Below, piece after piece: positions 47,421-56,056 of a DNA stretch of 64,000 nucleotides (position 1 is its first letter; every line of letters begins with the position of its first letter). The stretch is from Desulfobacteraceae bacterium. GTDB lineage: Bacteria; Desulfobacterota; Desulfobacteria; Desulfobacterales; Desulfobacteraceae. Below the pieces are notes generated by a model. The model saw only the letters and a program-made list of their open reading frames with translations, was not told the DNA's origin and did no database searches. Position numbers and translations under genes: made by a program. The stretch spans positions 1 through 64,000 of the forward strand of contig JAAELK010000509.1 of assembly GCA_024226935.1 (NCBI GenBank), in the 5' to 3' direction.

Positions 47421-49019
47421 TCAGTCAGCACAATTTTCCTGATCATATTTTACCTTGAACTCATCAATTACTTTTCTTACCGATTGGCCGATGGCACGAT
47501 AATTATACTCCGTAAGATTAGCTAATGAAACACGGGCTGACGGATGATCATCATCAAATCCCTTACCGGGTAACAAGACCACACCGGTTTCATCCGCCAA
47601 TCTCAGGACAAATTGCGCACCATTTGTCTTACCAATAAACCATTTAGCAAAGTTTTCACCATGCAAGGATTTGGACAGCTTTTCAAGATCCACTAAAGTG
47701 TAATAATCAACACTATTTTCATCATTCTCAGGCACTAACCCTATTGACCGATACAATATATCGTGACGGCGTTGAATCAGACGTTTAGCCTCGGCTTTAT
47801 AATTTTGATTTTCATCAAGCAGATTTGATAAAGCAAATAGTGTCATTTGCAACTGCTGGGGCAATGATAGTCCAGCGGTATGATTCAGTGCAACAACTCG
47901 ACTATCGGCTACCAAACGATCAATAAATTTCAACTTGCGCGGCTGATCAGTCAATGATGAATAACGTTTATCCAAGTGCTTTTTCTCCCCTTTAGACAAT
48001 GCTGCTAATTTGGCATCAAAAATATTATTTTTATGTGCCATAATGGTACCAATACGCCAACCTGTCGCACCAAAATATTTAGAAAATGAATAGACACAAA
48101 TGGTATTATAAGGACAAACAGCAAAAACCGAATGGAAGTTATCTGCAAAAGTTGCATATACATCATCGGTCACAATCATTAAGTCACTACGCCGGCCAAT
48201 AAGCAAATCAACCAATTGATTGAGAAACCCATCGTTCATTTTAACAGAAGGAGGATTACTTGGATTGACCATGAATAGCAGTTTTATCTCTTTATCCAAT
48301 AACTTATTTAATTCATGTTGAGGCACCTGCCAGCCATCATTCTCCACAGCTTTAATATGAATAATCTCCAGGCCATAGGAGGGAAGAATAGGAATTTCCA
48401 GATAGGGAGAAAAGATCGGTGTAATCAGCGCAACCTTATCACCCTGCTTTAATAGCCCGTTTGCCTGGAATGAGCGAAACAGGTAAGCCATAGCAGCTGT
48501 GCCGCCTTCAGTTGCAAATATATCGAACTCATCACTTCGTATTTTTGTACCACATAGTTCGACCGACAAATAAGTTTTCACAATAGTCTCGGATAGTTCC
48601 AGCATCCGGGGTGGTACAGGATAGTTACAACCAAGATAGGCTTGGGTCATTTCATGGAGTATATCTTCTTTACTGATCCCCAAATGATCGTGGCAAAAAG
48701 CTAATGCTGATTTAATAAAATTAATACCCAGTGTACCTTCATTTGACATTGCATAGGTATCAAAACGATTAACTATACCTTTTTTTTCCGGTACACCGCC
48801 AAAACCACTACTTAAATAGGCATAGGAACGCTCTGCCTCCTTTAAGGCAAAATCCCCGATACGCAAAAATGCGTGGCGGGGACGGGTGGCTAAAAAATTA
48901 GGATTACCACGACCGGCATTGAGCATCATCTGCCCTTGTCGCGACTGGGCACGGCGAATCAACTCATCCTTGAGTTCAAATGGACTTAATGCGTTAAGTT
49001 CTTTGCTCATGATAAACAC
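47421..49019 (-). CDS. aspD: Aspartate 4-decarboxylase (bifunctional with aspartate aminotransferase)
   Basis: 532 residues, as in known AspD. It has a fold-type I PLP enzyme layout with an extended N-terminus (LNAGRGNPNFLATRPRHAF). ATEGGTAAMAYLF, NPSNPPSVKM, TDDVYATF and the PLP lysine in YSFSKYFGATGWRIG are visible. The long insert with KHLDKRYSSLTDQPRK is typical of AspD and absent from ordinary aminotransferases. It converts L-aspartate to L-alanine and CO2. It is directly downstream of aspT (11 bp gap). ATG at 49019 or the next ATG three codons on (49010) are both possible; GAGGTG fits the latter. Confidence 0.93.
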   Translation of the reverse strand: MFIMSKELNALSPFELKDELIRRAQSRQGQMMLNAGRGNPNFLATRPRHAFLRIGDFALKEAERSYAYLSSGFGGVPEKKGIVNRFDTYAMSNEGTLGINFIKSALAFCHDHLGISKEDILHEMTQAYLGCNYPVPPRMLELSETIVKTYLSVELCGTKIRSDEFDIFATEGGTAAMAYLFRSFQANGLLKQGDKVALITPIFSPYLEIPILPSYGLEIIHIKAVENDGWQVPQHELNKLLDKEIKLLFMVNPSNPPSVKMNDGFLNQLVDLLIGRRSDLMIVTDDVYATFADNFHSVFAVCPYNTICVYSFSKYFGATGWRIGTIMAHKNNIFDAKLAALSKGEKKHLDKRYSSLTDQPRKLKFIDRLVADSRVVALNHTAGLSLPQQLQMTLFALSNLLDENQNYKAEAKRLIQRRHDILYRSIGLVPENDENSVDYYTLVDLEKLSKSLHGENFAKWFIGKTNGAQFVLRLADETGVVLLPGKGFDDDHPSARVSLANLTEYNYRAIGQSVRKVIDEFKVKYDQENCAD

Positions 49020-49030
49020 CTCTTTTTATG

Positions 49031-50737
49031 TTAACTCACATTTTTTGTTACCAATGCTACAATCACGGGCCCCCATAGTGTTAACCAGATATTGGCGATG
49101 GCATAAGTCGCGGTAAACGAAACAACTGGTGTAGAGTTACCCGCCTTTTCCAATAGTGCAGCAAACCCGGGATTAGCACTGCGCCCACCGGCAATAGTTG
49201 CTAAAATTTCAATCGGATTTTTAATTTTTAACAAATAATAAGAGATAAAAAAAGTAATAATTTGCGGAATAATGGTCACGGCAATACCCAATAACAACAA
49301 CACCATACCATGTTGTTTAATGGTGGTCACAGCCTCGGGACCTGCGGTAATACCAACGACAGCTACAAATACGGCTAAACCAAAATCACGCAAAAAATTT
49401 GATGCCCCCGTCGGCAAATTACCAAAGCGGGGATGCCGGGAACGCAACCAACCAAAAACCAAACCCGATACCAAGCAACCGCCTCCTGTTCCCATTGAAA
49501 TTGACACACCAAAAACCCGCACAGTAATCATGCCGATCAATACACCCAGTGCTATCCCGATACTAAATGCAATAAAATCAGTAATTGTTGCAGACGAAAC
49601 GACATGACCCAATTTACGTGATACCCTATCCAAATCAACAGGCCTGCCAAACAATTTAATATCATCACCACGATGCAAAACAAAATCCTGATCGGGTGTA
49701 ATCGCCTCACCTAAACGTGATACTGCGTGAATAAATAATCCATAATGTTCTTTATCTGCAGTTTGCCCATAACACTGGGCAATTGTTTTACCATCAAACT
49801 CTTTTCTGGAGAGAATGATATTTCTTTCCTCTTCGATAAGTTGCAATATTGCAGGTTTTGCTATTTCATGCTCAAACAATGGATTTTTTTTGATAAAATT
49901 AACACTTTCGGTTGTTACCGCCACAAGATCACCCGCCTGCAAAGCTAAATCAGCATCCACATCGATGGTCTGTCCATCACGAATTAATGCCACAATAGCC
50001 ACCCTGTCAGGACCATAAAAAATCTGCGCTGCCGTCTGGCCGATTACAGAAGAATCGTCAGCCACTTGATATACCCGCGTATCAATATCCTGGATCGCAC
50101 AAAATTGACCCGGATCGAGTTCAACACCACGGCCACGCGCCATGGTAGTTGCTAATTTTTTTGCCTCTTTACGCAGATCCCACTTCATCATGGCAGGAAT
50201 AATTGCGGTAAGAATTAAAATTGGACCAAAAGAGCCAAAAAGATAACACACCGCATAACCAACTGCAATATTGGTCTGCATGGCCTGGGTCACATTCACT
50301 GACAAGCCAAGCTTTGCTATGGCATCACTTGCGGTACCGATCATCGCCGATTGGGTTAGCCCTCCTGCTGCCAACCCGGCTGCCGTGCCTCGATCTAAGC
50401 CAAACTCCCAGGCAGCAATTAATACACAAAGCAATCCCAGCACACAAGTAATGGTAGAAGAAAGTAATTGAATACCGGTCTCACGATTTATTGAACGAAA
50501 AAATTGTGGTCCTCCTTGATAGCCAACCGAATAGATAAACAATGCAAAAAAAATAGTTCCAATTGCGGCCGGCATTTTGATATCAAGTTGCCCTATCAGT
50601 ACACCCATAATTAATGACCCTGCAATACCACCCAAGACAAATGTTTTAATACGAAACTTGCCCACAAAATAGCCCAGGGCAATGGTAATAAACAAAACAA
50701 GTAATGGCGATTTTACCAATAATTGATGCATAAACAT
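49031..50737 (-). CDS. aspT: Aspartate:alanine antiporter AspT
   Basis: 568 residues. Two blocks of membrane helices flank a cytoplasmic region with two TrkA-C (RCK_C) domains at about 215-375 (VYQVADDSSVIGQTAAQI; FVLHRGDDIKLFGRPVD). GTASDAIAKLG and GGRSANPGFAALLEKAGNSTPVVSFTATYAIANI are typical AspT. It exchanges external aspartate for internal alanine, generating proton motive force when AspD decarboxylates inside. The module is known from Tetragenococcus and some proteobacteria and is not typical of sulfate reducers. The pair lies between housekeeping operons and may be acquired. Confidence 0.93.
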   Translation of the reverse strand: MFMHQLLVKSPLLVLFITIALGYFVGKFRIKTFVLGGIAGSLIMGVLIGQLDIKMPAAIGTIFFALFIYSVGYQGGPQFFRSINRETGIQLLSSTITCVLGLLCVLIAAWEFGLDRGTAAGLAAGGLTQSAMIGTASDAIAKLGLSVNVTQAMQTNIAVGYAVCYLFGSFGPILILTAIIPAMMKWDLRKEAKKLATTMARGRGVELDPGQFCAIQDIDTRVYQVADDSSVIGQTAAQIFYGPDRVAIVALIRDGQTIDVDADLALQAGDLVAVTTESVNFIKKNPLFEHEIAKPAILQLIEEERNIILSRKEFDGKTIAQCYGQTADKEHYGLFIHAVSRLGEAITPDQDFVLHRGDDIKLFGRPVDLDRVSRKLGHVVSSATITDFIAFSIGIALGVLIGMITVRVFGVSISMGTGGGCLVSGLVFGWLRSRHPRFGNLPTGASNFLRDFGLAVFVAVVGITAGPEAVTTIKQHGMVLLLLGIAVTIIPQIITFFISYYLLKIKNPIEILATIAGGRSANPGFAALLEKAGNSTPVVSFTATYAIANIWLTLWGPVIVALVTKNVS

Positions 50738-50996: not shown

Positions 50997-52049
50997 TCAA
51001 CGATTTGTTTTTTGTCTTAAAATATGGTCTGTGAGTACCAACGCCAGCATAGATTCACACACTTTATTTATTCTAGGGATAGCGCAAATATCATGGCGGC
51101 CCTTTGTGGAAATAGTGGTGGGCTGGCCCGTATCCGTCAAAGTTTTTTGGGGTTTTAATATGGAAGGGATAGGCTTTACATGAACTCTGACAATGATATC
51201 GTCTCCATTGGAAATACCAGCCAGGATCCCGCCTGAATGATTGCTGGCAAATCCATCCTGGGTCAATTGATCATTATTTTCAAACCCGGTCATTTCAGCG
51301 GCACCGATACCAGCACCGATTTCAACGGCTTTAACGGCACCAATACTCATCATAGCCTTGGCAATATCGGCATCAAGTTTATCAAAAACAGGATCACCGA
51401 TACCGGCAGGAACATTGATGGCTTTTATTTCAACAACACCCCCCAGGGAATCTCCCTGGTTTTTAATAGTTTCTATTTTTTTTTCCATTTTTAATGCAGC
51501 TTCCATGTCCGGACACCTGAAGGGGTTTTTTTCAATTATCTTTGCATCAAAAATATTGGCTCGTATACCTCCCAGTCCAACTGTGTAGCTTTCTATTTTT
51601 ATCTGGTAAGGATCAAGAACAAGCTGGGCCACGGCCCCGGCTGCCACCCTTGCAGCAGTTTCCCGGGCAGAGGCCCTGCCCCCGCCCCTGTAATCCCTGA
51701 CACCAAATTTTTGGTGGTAGGTATAATCTCCGTGACCAGGACGAAATACCGAAGCAATATCTTCATAGGAGCTGGATTTTGCATCCCTGTTTTTAATCAT
51801 GATCATTATGGGAGTACCCGTGGTTTTTCCCTCAAATGTCCCTGATAAGATAAGGGGAGTATCCGGTTCCTTTCGCTTGGTGGAGGCAGGGCCATCGCCT
51901 GGTTTTCTTTTATCCAATGATTTTTGGATAAGGTCCTGATCGATGGGTAATCCCGGAGGACACCCCTGGATCACGACCCCGATAGCCGGGCCATGGGATT
52001 CTCCGAAGGTGGTAATTTGAAATGCTTTACCAAAACTACTGCCTGACAT
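50997..52049 (-). CDS. aroC: Chorismate synthase
   Basis: The frame is open from 52124, but AAAGGAGAG precedes the ATG at 52049, which gives the usual MSGSSFGKAFQITTFGESHG start and 350 residues. FMN/EPSP-binding motifs are GESHGPAIGVVIQGCPPG, FRPGHGDYTYHQKFG, DYRGGGRASARET and GRHD near the end. It makes chorismate from EPSP. The start overlaps aroK by 14 bp. Last gene of pheA-aroE-aroA-aroK-aroC. Confidence 0.97.
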   Translation of the reverse strand: MSGSSFGKAFQITTFGESHGPAIGVVIQGCPPGLPIDQDLIQKSLDKRKPGDGPASTKRKEPDTPLILSGTFEGKTTGTPIMIMIKNRDAKSSSYEDIASVFRPGHGDYTYHQKFGVRDYRGGGRASARETAARVAAGAVAQLVLDPYQIKIESYTVGLGGIRANIFDAKIIEKNPFRCPDMEAALKMEKKIETIKNQGDSLGGVVEIKAINVPAGIGDPVFDKLDADIAKAMMSIGAVKAVEIGAGIGAAEMTGFENNDQLTQDGFASNHSGGILAGISNGDDIIVRVHVKPIPSILKPQKTLTDTGQPTTISTKGRHDICAIPRINKVCESMLALVLTDHILRQKTNR

Positions 52050-52575
52050 GGGAAACTCTCCTTTTGATAATATTTGCTGCCTCTTTGGGTGAATGACGAA
52101 CGGTATTGATTTGTATTTGTCCAAGTTTCCGGTACAAAGGCGTACGCAGACTTATCATTTCCAGGGTCTCCTGGAACAGATCATCATCGGAGAACTTGGG
52201 CCTTGCTTTATGATTTTCAACATCTGCAAGCAGACGCCTGACAATGGTGGCACTATCTGCATGAAGCCAGACACAAATTCCATGGGCTTTAATAAAACTG
52301 CGATTTGCAGGATCCAATACGATACCTCCCCCCGTGGCAATGACTAAATTAGAACCAGAACCTGTATCTAAAAGAGCCTGCCTTTCTTTTTGCCTGAAAT
52401 AATCCCACCCCTTTTGATTTATCATCTCTTCTATGGTGGTCTTAAACTTTGCTTCAATTATCCTGTCTGTATCAACAAATGGACAGCCCATAAGATTTGC
52501 CAGCAGCTTTCCCGTCGTACTTTTCCCGGTACACCGATATCCGATAAGATAAATAGGTTTTATGGTTTCCATCAA
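52036..52575 (-). CDS. aroK: Shikimate kinase
   Basis: 179 residues. The P-loop is GYRCTGKSTTGK, the shikimate site is DTDRIIE, and ATGGGIVLDPANR and RRLLADVENHKARPKF (lid) follow. It phosphorylates shikimate at O3. The first codon may be either of two adjacent ATGs. It has close spacing with aroA (30 bp) and overlaps aroC. Confidence 0.95.
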   Translation of the reverse strand: MMETIKPIYLIGYRCTGKSTTGKLLANLMGCPFVDTDRIIEAKFKTTIEEMINQKGWDYFRQKERQALLDTGSGSNLVIATGGGIVLDPANRSFIKAHGICVWLHADSATIVRRLLADVENHKARPKFSDDDLFQETLEMISLRTPLYRKLGQIQINTVRHSPKEAANIIKRRVSHVRQ

Positions 52576-52605: not shown

Positions 52606-53865
52606 TTATAAGGTTTCAAAAATATCCCAATACCCGGGAAATGATTTTTCCACACAGGACGGGTTTTCAATTTCCATGCCATCCACAACAAGCCCGGCCA
52701 CGGAAAAAGCCATGGCAATTCTGTGGTCGTTAAAAGTTTCTATAAATGCCCCCTTTGGGGTACCGCCCACAATCTCAATAAAATCATCCCCCTGGGTTAC
52801 CTTAATTCCCATTTTTATCAGTTGAGAAGATACAGCTTCTATGCGATCACATTCTTTTATCCTCAAATGACCAATATTATAAATTCTTGTTGTTCCCTTG
52901 GCAAAAGCTGCCACCACTGCGATGGCAGGCACGGCATCCGGAGTGTCAGACATATCCACCTCCACGCCTTTGAGAGCATTGCCTTTAACGGCCACACAAT
53001 TTTTCCCAAAGCCAAGGGAACAACCCATCTTTTCAAGGATATAAATCTGTTTTTTATCACCCTGGAGAGATTTTTCTTGAATATTATCCACCCCGATTTC
53101 ACTGCCGCTGACAGCTCCTGCCGCCCAGAAATAACCTGCATTGGAAAGATCTGGTTCCACCACATATTCTCCAGATTCATAAATCTGGTTTCCCGGAACC
53201 CGATATTCCCTGTCATTAATTTTATCAACATTTACATTAAATTGGTTCATAACATCAATGGTCAGATCGATATATGGAACAGAAACCGGCAGCCCTGGAA
53301 GACTAACAATCAGGCCTTGCTCCATCAATGCCCCCATCATGAGCAAAGAAGATAGATATTGACTGCTTTTGGAACAATCTATACTGGTGCGCCCCCCTTT
53401 TCTGCCAAGCCCCTTGATGAAAACCGGCGGTGTTCCCTCTAAATTTTTTGACCAGGCTTTTACCTGGATACCATTTAATGCATCCAATAATTCAACCATG
53501 GGACGTTGGCACATCCTTTCATCTCCAGTCAGGGTGTATACCGTCTCCCCTAAAGCTGCAATACCTGCTAAAAGCCGCATGGAAGTTCCTGAGTTCCCGA
53601 GATAAATAGGAGGTTCATGGGGAATGGGTCGACCATTAAATCCTTGCACCTCGACAAGATCAGGTTCCAGTTCTTTGATACCAGCTCCCATTGAAATCAA
53701 GGCTTTTGTAGTCAGGGACAGATCCTGACTTTTTAACAAGTTTCCAATTTTTGAGGTTCCCTTTGAAAGGGCAGCACATATCATCATCCTATGGGAAATG
53801 CTTTTAGAACCAGGTACCTGAACGATTTTGTCCATGATTTGTCTGGATTTGATTTGTTTTATCAT
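52606..53865 (-). CDS. aroA: 3-phosphoshikimate 1-carboxyvinyltransferase (EPSP synthase)
   Basis: 419 residues. Motifs are VPGSKSISHR, LGNSGTSMRLLAGI, GDERMCQRPM, GGRTSIDCSKSSQYLS, LRIKECDRI and FNDHRIAMA. It joins PEP and shikimate-3-phosphate. The N-terminal Gly-96 region reads GNSGTS rather than the GNAGTAMR of classical glyphosate-sensitive class I enzymes, so inhibitor sensitivity is uncertain. It lies 23 bp downstream of aroE. Confidence 0.96.
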   Translation of the reverse strand: MIKQIKSRQIMDKIVQVPGSKSISHRMMICAALSKGTSKIGNLLKSQDLSLTTKALISMGAGIKELEPDLVEVQGFNGRPIPHEPPIYLGNSGTSMRLLAGIAALGETVYTLTGDERMCQRPMVELLDALNGIQVKAWSKNLEGTPPVFIKGLGRKGGRTSIDCSKSSQYLSSLLMMGALMEQGLIVSLPGLPVSVPYIDLTIDVMNQFNVNVDKINDREYRVPGNQIYESGEYVVEPDLSNAGYFWAAGAVSGSEIGVDNIQEKSLQGDKKQIYILEKMGCSLGFGKNCVAVKGNALKGVEVDMSDTPDAVPAIAVVAAFAKGTTRIYNIGHLRIKECDRIEAVSSQLIKMGIKVTQGDDFIEIVGGTPKGAFIETFNDHRIAMAFSVAGLVVDGMEIENPSCVEKSFPGYWDIFETL

Positions 53866-53888: not shown

Positions 53889-54713
53889 TTAAGTTTTTTT
53901 ACTATAACGCTGATTTTCCAATACAGCATCTCTCATCACCTGAATATCAGGTTTCAAGCCGGTCCACAATTCAAACTGAGCGGCAGCCTGGGCCACAAAC
54001 ATGGATAGTCCATCAATGATGATACATCCTTGTTCCTTGGCAACAGACAGCAATCGGGTTTTTAAAGGGGTATAAACCACATCCATGACCACCATGTCAG
54101 AAGTCAGATTTTTGACCGGAAAGGATAAATCTTCCAGATGGTGGGGATACATACCAAGGCTTGTAGTATTAATTACTATATCTGCCTCAATGGTATCTAT
54201 TTGATCCATGGGAATAAAAACCCCCTTAAATTTAGCAGCCAGGGCAACACCTTTTTCAGAAGAACGATTGGTTATAATTAATTGTCCTCCCTGTTTTGAA
54301 ATACCATAGGCCACAGCCCTTGCCGCCCCCCCTGCCCCAATAATACAAGTGGTTTTGTCTTTTATCCCATGGACAATTAAAGGATCAACCGCCGCCTTAT
54401 AATCTGTATTATATCCTGAAAGTCTGCCATCATGGTTCACTATTGTATTCACGGCTCCAATTTCCTGGGCCTTGTGATCAACTTCATCCAGATAGGGCAT
54501 AATAGTTTCCTTGAATGGAATAGTTATGGATGCCCCTTTAATTTTAAGGGTTCGTATGGATGAGACGGCCCCGGCAACATCAAAGGGCTCAAATGCCAGA
54601 TATACAGCATTAATACGGTTTTGGGTGAAACTGATATTATGTACCAGGGGACTTTGTGAATGGGATACAGGACTGCCTAAAATACAATAGAGATCTGTGG
54701 ATGCATTAATCAT
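53889..54713 (-). CDS. aroE: Shikimate dehydrogenase
   Basis: 274 residues. The substrate site is LGSPVSHSQSPLVHN. SITIPFKETIMPYLDEVD holds the catalytic lysine (F-K-E). The NADP fold is IIGAGGAARAVAYGI, then TNRSSEKG and VYTPLKTRLL. It reduces 3-dehydroshikimate. It starts 4 bp after pheA, so it is tightly coupled to it. Confidence 0.95.
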   Translation of the reverse strand: MINASTDLYCILGSPVSHSQSPLVHNISFTQNRINAVYLAFEPFDVAGAVSSIRTLKIKGASITIPFKETIMPYLDEVDHKAQEIGAVNTIVNHDGRLSGYNTDYKAAVDPLIVHGIKDKTTCIIGAGGAARAVAYGISKQGGQLIITNRSSEKGVALAAKFKGVFIPMDQIDTIEADIVINTTSLGMYPHHLEDLSFPVKNLTSDMVVMDVVYTPLKTRLLSVAKEQGCIIIDGLSMFVAQAAAQFELWTGLKPDIQVMRDAVLENQRYSKKT

Positions 54714-54717
54714 GGGT

Positions 54718-55815
54718 CTAAATCTCCTCTTTTACGAAGACAGGATAGGATCCTAATATTTTTAAGGTAAGAGAATATCTTTTTATCTTTTCAATGGTTT
54801 TTGCAATTTTAGGATCTTCAATATGTCCTTCAATGTCAAGGAAGAAATAGTAACTCCAATTTTGATCCCGGGTGGGTCTTGATTCCAGTTTAAGCATATT
54901 CAACCCGGCTTTTTCAACGGGCTTAAGGGCTTTAATCAACGCCCCCGGCACATGGGATGTTACAAACATAATAGAAGTTTTATCCCGGCCGGTTTTTCGG
55001 GCTGATTCTTTACCGATAACCAAAAAACGAGTAACATTTCCAGAGTAATCTTCGATTTTAGATTCCACCGAGAGCAATCCATAAAGATGAGCTGCCTGCT
55101 GACCTGCAATGGCAGCAACTTCTTGATTTTCAGATGCCATGAGGGCAGCTTTTGACGTGGAACTTGTTTCCAATACTTTTACATGGGCAAATTTTTTCTT
55201 AAGCCATCCCTTGCACTGGGCGATGGCCTGGGGGTGTGAATAAATAGTTTTCATATCGCAGGCTTCGCCTGTTATGGATAATAGATCATGGGAAATGGGT
55301 TCATAATGTTCAGCACAGATCTTTAAATCAAAATCACTGAACAGATCCAGGGTATAATTAACCGCTCCTTCAATGGAATTTTCAACCGGCACCACACCAA
55401 AATGACTATTATTTTTTTCCACATCCCGGAAGATATCAAATAATCCGGGATGTTCAATAAATTGACCGGAGTATTTAAAATGATTTAAAGCGGCAAGATG
55501 GGTGTAACTGGCCTTTGGTCCTAGAAAAGAAATTATCCTGGGTTTTTGAATTTCCCGGGTGGCTGTAATAATTACATTAAAAATATATTGCAAAAGATCT
55601 TTGTTAGCCGGTCCTTTATTCATTTTCCAGAGCTTTTCAATAACCTTTCTTTCCCGGGAACGATCAAGAATCTGACCACCTTTTTCTTTTTTAACAGCAC
55701 CCACTTGTTTTCCAATGGATAACCGTTGATTGATCAGGTCCAAAATCTTAGAATCGATTTGATCAATCTCATCTCTGAGCGGTGCAAGTGCTTTTTCCTG
55801 GGATCTGTTTTCCAT
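54718..55815 (-). CDS. pheA: Bifunctional chorismate mutase/prephenate dehydratase (P-protein)
   Basis: 365 residues. The AroQ chorismate mutase domain (about 10-92) has LRDEIDQIDSKILDLINQRL and ILDRSRERKVIEKL. The dehydratase domain (about 95-275) has FLGPKASYTHLAA, VVPVENSIEGAVNYT and the TRF motif in NVTRFLVIG. The ACT domain carries ESRPTRDQNWSYYFFLDIEG, the phenylalanine-binding signature. It routes chorismate to phenylpyruvate. It heads the aromatic operon, so attenuation in front of it controls the late shikimate pathway as well. Confidence 0.97.
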   Translation of the reverse strand: MENRSQEKALAPLRDEIDQIDSKILDLINQRLSIGKQVGAVKKEKGGQILDRSRERKVIEKLWKMNKGPANKDLLQYIFNVIITATREIQKPRIISFLGPKASYTHLAALNHFKYSGQFIEHPGLFDIFRDVEKNNSHFGVVPVENSIEGAVNYTLDLFSDFDLKICAEHYEPISHDLLSITGEACDMKTIYSHPQAIAQCKGWLKKKFAHVKVLETSSTSKAALMASENQEVAAIAGQQAAHLYGLLSVESKIEDYSGNVTRFLVIGKESARKTGRDKTSIMFVTSHVPGALIKALKPVEKAGLNMLKLESRPTRDQNWSYYFFLDIEGHIEDPKIAKTIEKIKRYSLTLKILGSYPVFVKEEI

Positions 55816-55852
55816 GGTGTCCCCATCCTTTTTAAATAAAAATAACTACAAA

Positions 55853-55891
55853 ATAAAAAAACCGCATCAGGTTATCCCTGCTGCGGTTTTT
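55853..55891 (-). terminator. Attenuator terminator in the pheA leader
   Basis: On the minus strand CCGCAGCAGG (55886-55877) pairs with CCTGATGCGG (55871-55862), flanked by A5 before and T7 after. It lies between the leader peptide and pheA in the direction of pheA transcription, so it must be an attenuator. The upper arm can instead pair with CCTGTCTGTGG (55935-55925) as the antiterminator. Confidence 0.9.
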
Positions 55892-55921
55892 AAGCATGTT
55901 CAATATATGTAAATGATCAGC

Positions 55922-55984
55922 TCACCACAGACAGGCCGGCACAAAGTACCTAAAAAAGAAAAAATATCTGTGTGTAATTGTCAT
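55922..55984 (-). CDS. pheL: Phe attenuator leader peptide
   Basis: A 20-codon ORF starting MTITHRYFFFFRYFV, with five Phe, two Tyr and one Trp codon, ending TGG-TGA. A TTG start three codons upstream (55993) has GGAG at the better distance and would give 23 residues. The Phe run covers the region just after CACAGA (55972-55967), which can pair with TCTGTG of the antiterminator arm. Ribosome stalling at Phe codons would free the antiterminator and let transcription enter pheA. Confidence 0.88.
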   Translation of the reverse strand: MTITHRYFFFFRYFVPACLW

Positions 55985-56027
55985 TTTATTCAATCTGCTC
56001 CAAATTAAAGTTCCATAAAGTCATAAA

Positions 56028-56056
56028 AATCTATACTTCGATCTTCATTCTGTCAA
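56028..56056 (-). promoter_or_regulatory. Promoter of the pheA-aro operon
   Basis: TTGACA (56051-56056), exactly 17 nt, TAGATT (56028-56033) on the minus strand. It lies between the upstream CNNM gene stop (56096) and the leader peptide start, which is where an attenuated operon needs it. Confidence 0.75.

Follow-up and report, generated by a model that had tools for sequence, protein, structure and literature searches.

In Escherichia coli, the Phe-rich leader pheL and a terminator directly precede pheA, the gene for the fused chorismate mutase-prephenate dehydratase. In the same organism, the ilvGMEDA and thrABC leaders illustrate that one leader can hold control codons for more than one end product. 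Vitreschak and others reportedly carried out a comparative study of attenuation in proteobacteria in 2004. The attenuation mechanism is established; what appears to be new here is a family of Phe/Tyr attenuators in the Desulfobacterota that has no match in Rfam. Among the literature matches listed (titles and starts of abstracts), we found no description of Phe/Tyr leaders in these bacteria; subscription papers lay mostly outside the search, and an earlier description is possible.

The locus analysed here lies on the minus strand of a stretch of 64,000 nucleotides from a Desulfobacteraceae bacterium (contig JAAELK010000509.1 of assembly GCA_024226935.1), which we refer to as the window. As in E. 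coli, a Phe-rich leader and a terminator stand directly before a fused chorismate mutase-prephenate dehydratase gene. The two loci differ in that E. coli pheL has no Tyr codon, whereas the leader family of the window includes Tyr codons, and in that tyrA adjoins pheA on the other strand in E. coli, whereas four aro genes follow pheA in the window. The likeness to the ilvGMEDA and thrABC leaders lies in the multiple control codons, which here are Phe and Tyr, Phe being relatively more frequent ahead of pheA.

The Rfam model of the E. coli leader (RF01859, Phe_leader) scores 132 bits on E. coli pheL, is absent from the window at its gathering score (55 bits) and is absent from the leader stretch even at E 5. 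In turn, our models R1, built from pheA leaders only, and R2 both miss E. coli pheL, and the one weak match of R1 in the E. coli record (13.8 bits) lies elsewhere. More generally, neither the window nor any of 20 loci (19 related ones and the window's own) has an Rfam match at gathering score. The original prediction, made from the letters of the window, had described attenuation as in E. coli pheA; the likeness holds for the proposed mechanism and does not extend to family membership.

The leader and the genes behind it

A promoter-like site, TTGACA (56056-56051) followed after 17 nt by TAGATT (ending at 56028), occupies positions 56028-56056 of the minus strand, 3' of the stop codon of the preceding CNNM/CBS-domain gene and about 40 nt away from it. 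Such sites are hardly commoner in the scanned region than in shuffles (42 versus 34 ± 5.7), so that the promoter by itself carries little weight; by eye, a TTGACA/TATAAT-like pair can be seen 5' of the leader in several relatives (for example L003, L006, L007, L008 and L009). Further along the minus strand, a possible Shine-Dalgarno sequence, GGAG (55998-56001), is followed at a distance of 13 nt, which counts against an attenuator, by the ATG of a short, presumably translated open reading frame (55922-55984). Its 20 codons, MTITHRYFFFFRYFVPACLW, followed by a stop, include five Phe codons (four of them in a row), two Tyr codons and one Trp codon. Arm 1, CACAGA (55967-55972), can pair with arm 2, CCTGTCTGTGG (55925-55935), which can alternatively pair, with one bulged U, with arm 3, CCGCAGCAGG (55877-55886). 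Arm 4, CCTGATGCGG (55862-55871), forms the 3' half of the terminator stem and is followed by seven T (55855-55861), the U-tract of an intrinsic terminator that precedes the first structural gene, about 40 nt upstream of the pheA ATG, where the 3' end of a short transcript would be expected.

The 168-nt leader is predicted to fold at -48.6 kcal/mol, compared with -30.5 ± 3.9 for 200 dinucleotide shuffles, none of which is as low (z = -4.7), and the predicted fold contains both the 1:2 and the 3:4 hairpins. Folding was one of the checks proposed with the original prediction, whose promoter, leader peptide, four arms and T7 are all found base for base on the minus strand. Counting against an attenuator, a generic terminator scan did not list the terminator of the window, the stem of which has an internal mismatch.

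Behind the leader, and likewise on the minus strand, lie pheA (chorismate mutase-prephenate dehydratase with an ACT domain, 54718-55815), aroE (shikimate dehydrogenase, 53889-54713), aroA (EPSP synthase, 52606-53865), aroK/aroL (shikimate kinase, 52036-52575) and aroC (chorismate synthase, 50997-52049). These are the identities given in the original prediction, and NCBIfam confirms four of them above curated cut-offs, the shikimate kinase scoring below the cut-offs with AroL as best match. For aroC, a start near 52049 is likelier than the open-frame start at 52124, since the family match begins at residue 35 at least. The five genes are co-directional, with gaps of at most 30 nt or overlaps, and are presumably carried on one transcript; they make the amino acid whose codons the leader holds. 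Directly 3' of the aro operon, at 47421-50737 of the minus strand, are genes for an aspartate 4-decarboxylase and an aspartate-alanine antiporter, probably a separate unit.

Proposed mechanism

We consider it very likely that these elements form a ribosome-mediated transcription attenuator ahead of the pheA operon, which would respond to Phe with a minor share of Tyr. Translation of the leader, premature termination and read-through on starvation are the predicted steps. RNA polymerase would start near 56020 and a ribosome would begin the leader peptide. With charged tRNA-Phe, and to a lesser degree charged tRNA-Tyr, in plentiful supply, the ribosome would reach the stop codon and cover arm 2, or would leave and let 1:2 form; in both cases arm 3 would pair with arm 4 and transcription would end near 55855. 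When charged tRNA is scarce, a stall at Tyr7-Phe11 would place the ribosome over arm 1 and free arm 2 for arm 3; the 2:3 pairing would block the terminator, and pheA-aroE-aroA-aroK-aroC would be transcribed. Conservation of the leader, covariation of its pairings and the placing of the control codons, described below, all support the ribosome-mediated attenuation originally proposed.

Conservation and compensatory changes

PheA was sought in 58 genomes, our own included, and 57 gave some match. Our own genome is also one of the 23 of the family set, defined by a PheA match at E 1e-110 or better together with upstream sequence (among family genomes, G004 is cut inside pheA and the match in G016 is in two pieces). 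In 19 of the 23, own genome included, pheA is preceded by a Phe-rich leader that has the arms; the four that have no leader directly before pheA (G006, G013, G026 and G031) count against the attenuator, and the gene directly 5' of pheA in G013 and G026 encodes a 3-dehydroquinate synthase II. The original prediction had staked itself on relatives keeping the Phe codons and the alternative pairing; the 19 genomes keep both, the four do not, and the antiterminator covaries. In other families of the order, where the region upstream of pheA was read in 17 genomes, the leader is directly before pheA in one (G053), and the genomes outside the family with a leader before pheA are two (G053 and G221). 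Within flanks of 1.5 kb, aroE follows pheA in 46 of 51 loci, and of 21 family loci 15 carry a CNNM/CBS gene ahead of pheA. Named genomes were scanned as well and contributed 15 loci, which include Desulfobacula and Desulfospira joergensenii; 8 of the 15 are apparently the same contigs as already in the genome set. R1 matches 12 of these 15, one being cut by a contig end and one weak (L221), and has no match in L225, L230 and L229, the last of which is cut inside pheA; L225, L230 and the weak L221 count against the attenuator. The isolate D. joergensenii DSM 10085 (L220) does carry the leader.

For the pairing tests we used 20 pheA leaders, namely the 19 of the family and that of G053. Arms 2 and 3 are 90% paired in this set, with compensatory changes at four pairs, and both the number of paired cells and the covariation score exceed all 500 shuffles and every slid control; the number of pair types does not rise above shuffles (313 of 500 reach the observed value), and 72 of 500 shuffles have at least as many doubly changed pairs. 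Furthermore, the arm 2:arm 3 duplex has a mean energy of -19.7 kcal/mol within genomes versus -16.5 when arms are swapped between genomes in silico, and none of 20000 permutations was as good. RNAalifold finds the 2:3 helix in the 20 leaders and misses the terminator, because gaps split arm 4 in this alignment, and we therefore counted the terminator on a larger alignment (A3), which comprises 82 of the 87 examined matches of R1 after removal of an identical copy and four near-copies. In these 82 related leaders, the 1:2, 2:3 and 3:4 pairings are 87.7, 87.6 and 93.2% paired, and for all three the paired cells and the covariation score exceed all 500 shuffles; for 2:3, doubly changed cells are more numerous in one slid control than in the observed helix (27 versus 20). 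The tests on both sets are inflated by the relatedness of the leaders, which the shuffles leave in place. The mutually exclusive pairings 1:2, 2:3 (with its bulged U) and 3:4 of the original prediction are thus borne out, conserved by compensatory change in related leaders.

Control codons and predicted amino acid specificity

If the ribosome is assumed to have a footprint extending about 13 nt to the 5' side of the P site and 12 nt to the 3' side from the start of the A site, a stall with Tyr7 or any of Phe8-Phe11 (55952-55966) in the A site covers arm 1 and frees arm 2. A stall at codons 3-6 would likewise cover arm 1 and free arm 2, one at Tyr13 covers neither arm, and arm 2 becomes covered from Phe14 on. 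In 101 leaders, the stretch that separates arm 1 from arm 2 is filled with Phe and Tyr codons, which end about four codons before arm 2, the assumed reach of the ribosome. Among codons that lie behind arm 1 and at which a stall would cover it and free arm 2, Phe and Tyr make up 80% of 100 codons in the pheA set and 65% of 478 in the larger set, compared with 19% and 23% of the remaining codons, among which the count places those upstream of the end of arm 1 (3-6 in the window) though they also cover arm 1.

The reading frame bears on this as well. Over 105 leaders there are 457 in-frame Tyr codons versus 23 and 82 in the other two frames, 421 Phe codons versus 281 and 321, and 65 Trp codons versus 50 and 39, i.e. 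a strong enrichment for Tyr, a moderate one for Phe and none for Trp; the open reading frames were picked by their highest Phe+Tyr+Trp content, which favours frame 0, and Trp is nonetheless not enriched. The test covers 105 of 106 rows, L090 having been dropped with its frame wrongly set and the identical pair L152/L153 kept. R1 was trained on Phe-rich leaders, so that Phe/Tyr-rich matches score better. With the exception of L096, however, the members of the PheA group, to which L037 was assigned by position, had been identified from gene position before models were built; in this group alone there are 57 Tyr codons versus 24 ± 4.4 in dinucleotide shuffles.

The original prediction had suggested that Tyr and Trp codons could allow several amino acids to be sensed. 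For the family, Tyr sensing is well supported by the in-frame codon counts; it would be minor in the window leader, as Tyr7 lies in the control stretch and Tyr13 outside it. We rejected Trp sensing: Trp codons show no enrichment, and the one in the window lies inside arm 2, next to the stop. Elsewhere in the genome there are two TrpE-family matches, both below the curated cut-off, the first with no open reading frame of at least two Trp codons in the 420 nt upstream, the second with one such frame upstream that overlaps the start of the match. Phe accounts for a share, F/(F+Y), of 0.65 in the 21 pheA leaders, compared with 0.44 in the 39 leaders ahead of DAHP synthase and 0.45 in the 38 ahead of ADTH synthase; the Mann-Whitney value for the Phe:Tyr ratio is 4e-9 and ignores relatedness. 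Where a genome has both kinds of leader, four of five agree in direction (G000, G027, G020 and G012) and G221 disagrees.

Alternative explanations

At the permissive threshold, the search of the window leader with Rfam gave only sub-threshold matches, one of which, to the trpB motif (RF04312), is full-length (55850-55974, minus strand; model positions 1-107, 29 bits, E 0.036). This motif has the same layout of two hairpins, the second a terminator, and occurs in other phyla (Firmicutes and Fusobacteria); it most often precedes a gene for an amino-acid-type ABC transporter (PMC11109978). The leader could accordingly be read as a metabolite riboswitch or a protein-bound terminator of this kind, which we regard as highly improbable given a score far below the 59 bits needed for membership and the in-frame codon signal. 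The authors of the motif do not themselves rule out a classic attenuator (PMC11109978). As a side observation, the sub-threshold match hints that the RF04312 riboswitch candidate may itself also be a leader-peptide attenuator.

It is also very unlikely that the leader encodes a TnaC-like arrest peptide, which would respond to the free amino acid by way of the nascent chain and not to charged tRNA. The C-terminus is indeed conserved within subgroups (CLW, LPVVR, RSVHPV), but no C-terminal peptide is conserved across them: arm 2 is read in different frames, as TGT CTG TGG TGA in the window and CTG CCT GTG GTG CGC TGA in L018, so that it is the RNA that has been kept and not the peptide. The aromatic codons, moreover, lie at ribosome distance from arm 2. 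Least probable of all is a terminator that serves the upstream CNNM/CBS gene, with a small frame that arose by chance, for although the leader is T-rich, which favours Phe codons, and that gene ends about 40 nt before the promoter-like site, the leader is kept without a CNNM gene in the available flank (L011, L012, L017 and L021) and before different target genes, Tyr codons are concentrated in frame, and there is covariation in 1:2 and 2:3, pairings for which a bare terminator has no use.

A wider family of Phe/Tyr leaders

Such leaders are also found at other loci of the same genome, in which R2 has three matches at E < 0.001 (the window, C119 and C176), the next being at E 0.29. The C119 leader, MNFCDTDSFYFYFRFYFYTWLPVLR, precedes a DAHP synthase. 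The C176 leader, METIKTQFIFIFGRFFFFRSVHPV (E 9.6e-4), has seven Phe codons and no Tyr codon and precedes, outside the window, a gene for a 622-residue fusion of a type I-beta DAHP synthase and a prephenate dehydratase (L174:5107-6972, minus strand). Long open frames with a prephenate dehydratase match are present at similar places in many relatives. Twenty regions were taken, three of which were unusable and one of which did not belong to this comparison; a C176-like leader lies upstream of the corresponding gene in 15 of the 16 relatives with usable sequence. The 16 fusion-gene leaders, own included, hold 106 Phe and 4 Tyr codons. An alignment of 15 of these leaders, which omits one relative, is 100% paired in 1:2, 2:3 and 3:4; only for 3:4 does the covariation lie above every shuffle, 25 of 500 reaching the 2:3 value and 50 of 500 the 1:2 value. 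These leaders may share a common ancestor with that of the window.

Across the order, R1 matches 148 of 242 genomes at E 0.05, about a dozen of which are expected by chance, since E-values are per genome. We examined the 87 best-scoring matches, leaving aside the family pheA leaders already in the model (the leader of G053, retained, is also a training sequence), and 84 of them precede genes of the shikimate or aromatic pathway: 39 a DAHP synthase, 41 an ADTH synthase, two pheA, one aroE and one aroK-aroB. The remaining three comprise one match without an assigned gene and two at contig ends. Profiles were applied to two of the DAHP synthase calls (TIGR00034) and one of the ADTH synthase calls (TIGR01949), and two ADTH synthase calls rest on tblastn only. 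The R1 match of nine genomes (G035, G040, G043, G045, G046, G047, G049, G050 and G057) is located some 2 kb 5' of pheA and on its strand, and the first gene behind it is an ADTH synthase in the five that were read (G040, G047, G049, G050 and G057).

In the phylum search, run at E 0.001, matches were obtained in 89 of 247 genomes, 8 of which belong to the same order. By eye, 13 of 19 further phylum loci precede a DAHP synthase, an ADTH synthase or a shikimate kinase (L177, L178, L180, L182 and L184 were checked with NCBIfam, the kinase being below the cut-off); two have no readable gene, and L175, L176, L179 and L189 stand before other genes. Of the loci outside the order, L168, L169 and L171 (the last NCBIfam-checked) precede aromatic genes and L172 an ABC-type binding protein. 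In our reading, the window leader is a Phe-shifted member of a larger Phe/Tyr leader family in the order, with thinner support in the phylum.

Several such leaders stand before other genes. In L172 (245-1441, minus strand) and L175 (312-1514, minus strand), Phe-rich leaders and terminators stand, by eye, before binding-like proteins of branched-chain-type ABC transporters that have no NCBIfam match at E 1e-30; they are possibly tied to aromatic amino acid uptake. A Tyr-rich leader lies about 300 nt before a gene resembling the alpha subunit of an ADP-forming acyl-CoA synthetase in L176 and L189 (533-1720, plus strand), the latter alone tested with a profile and below the cut-off. In L179 (275-1453, plus strand), a Phe/Tyr leader precedes a PLP-dependent aminotransferase, perhaps an aromatic transaminase.

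Implications

We think it likely that the Desulfobacterota run much of their aromatic synthesis through an attenuator family that Rfam does not match and that we did not meet in the literature searched, and that the mixture of Phe and Tyr codons fits the enzyme behind the leader: a modest excess of Tyr over Phe before DAHP and ADTH synthases, a shift to Phe before pheA, and almost only Phe before the fusion of DAHP synthase and prephenate dehydratase. If this is true, one genome would need nothing but the mixture of codons to read the supply of Phe and Tyr at three points of the pathway. Leaders that probably work like that of E. coli pheA, but are missed by the Rfam Phe model, are common in another phylum, where they precede the first step of shikimate synthesis. 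Their graded content of Phe and Tyr codons predicts, in a form open to test, the relative weight that a leader peptide gives to each of two amino acids, and the leader models provide a marker of aromatic operons among sulfate reducers and related bacteria.
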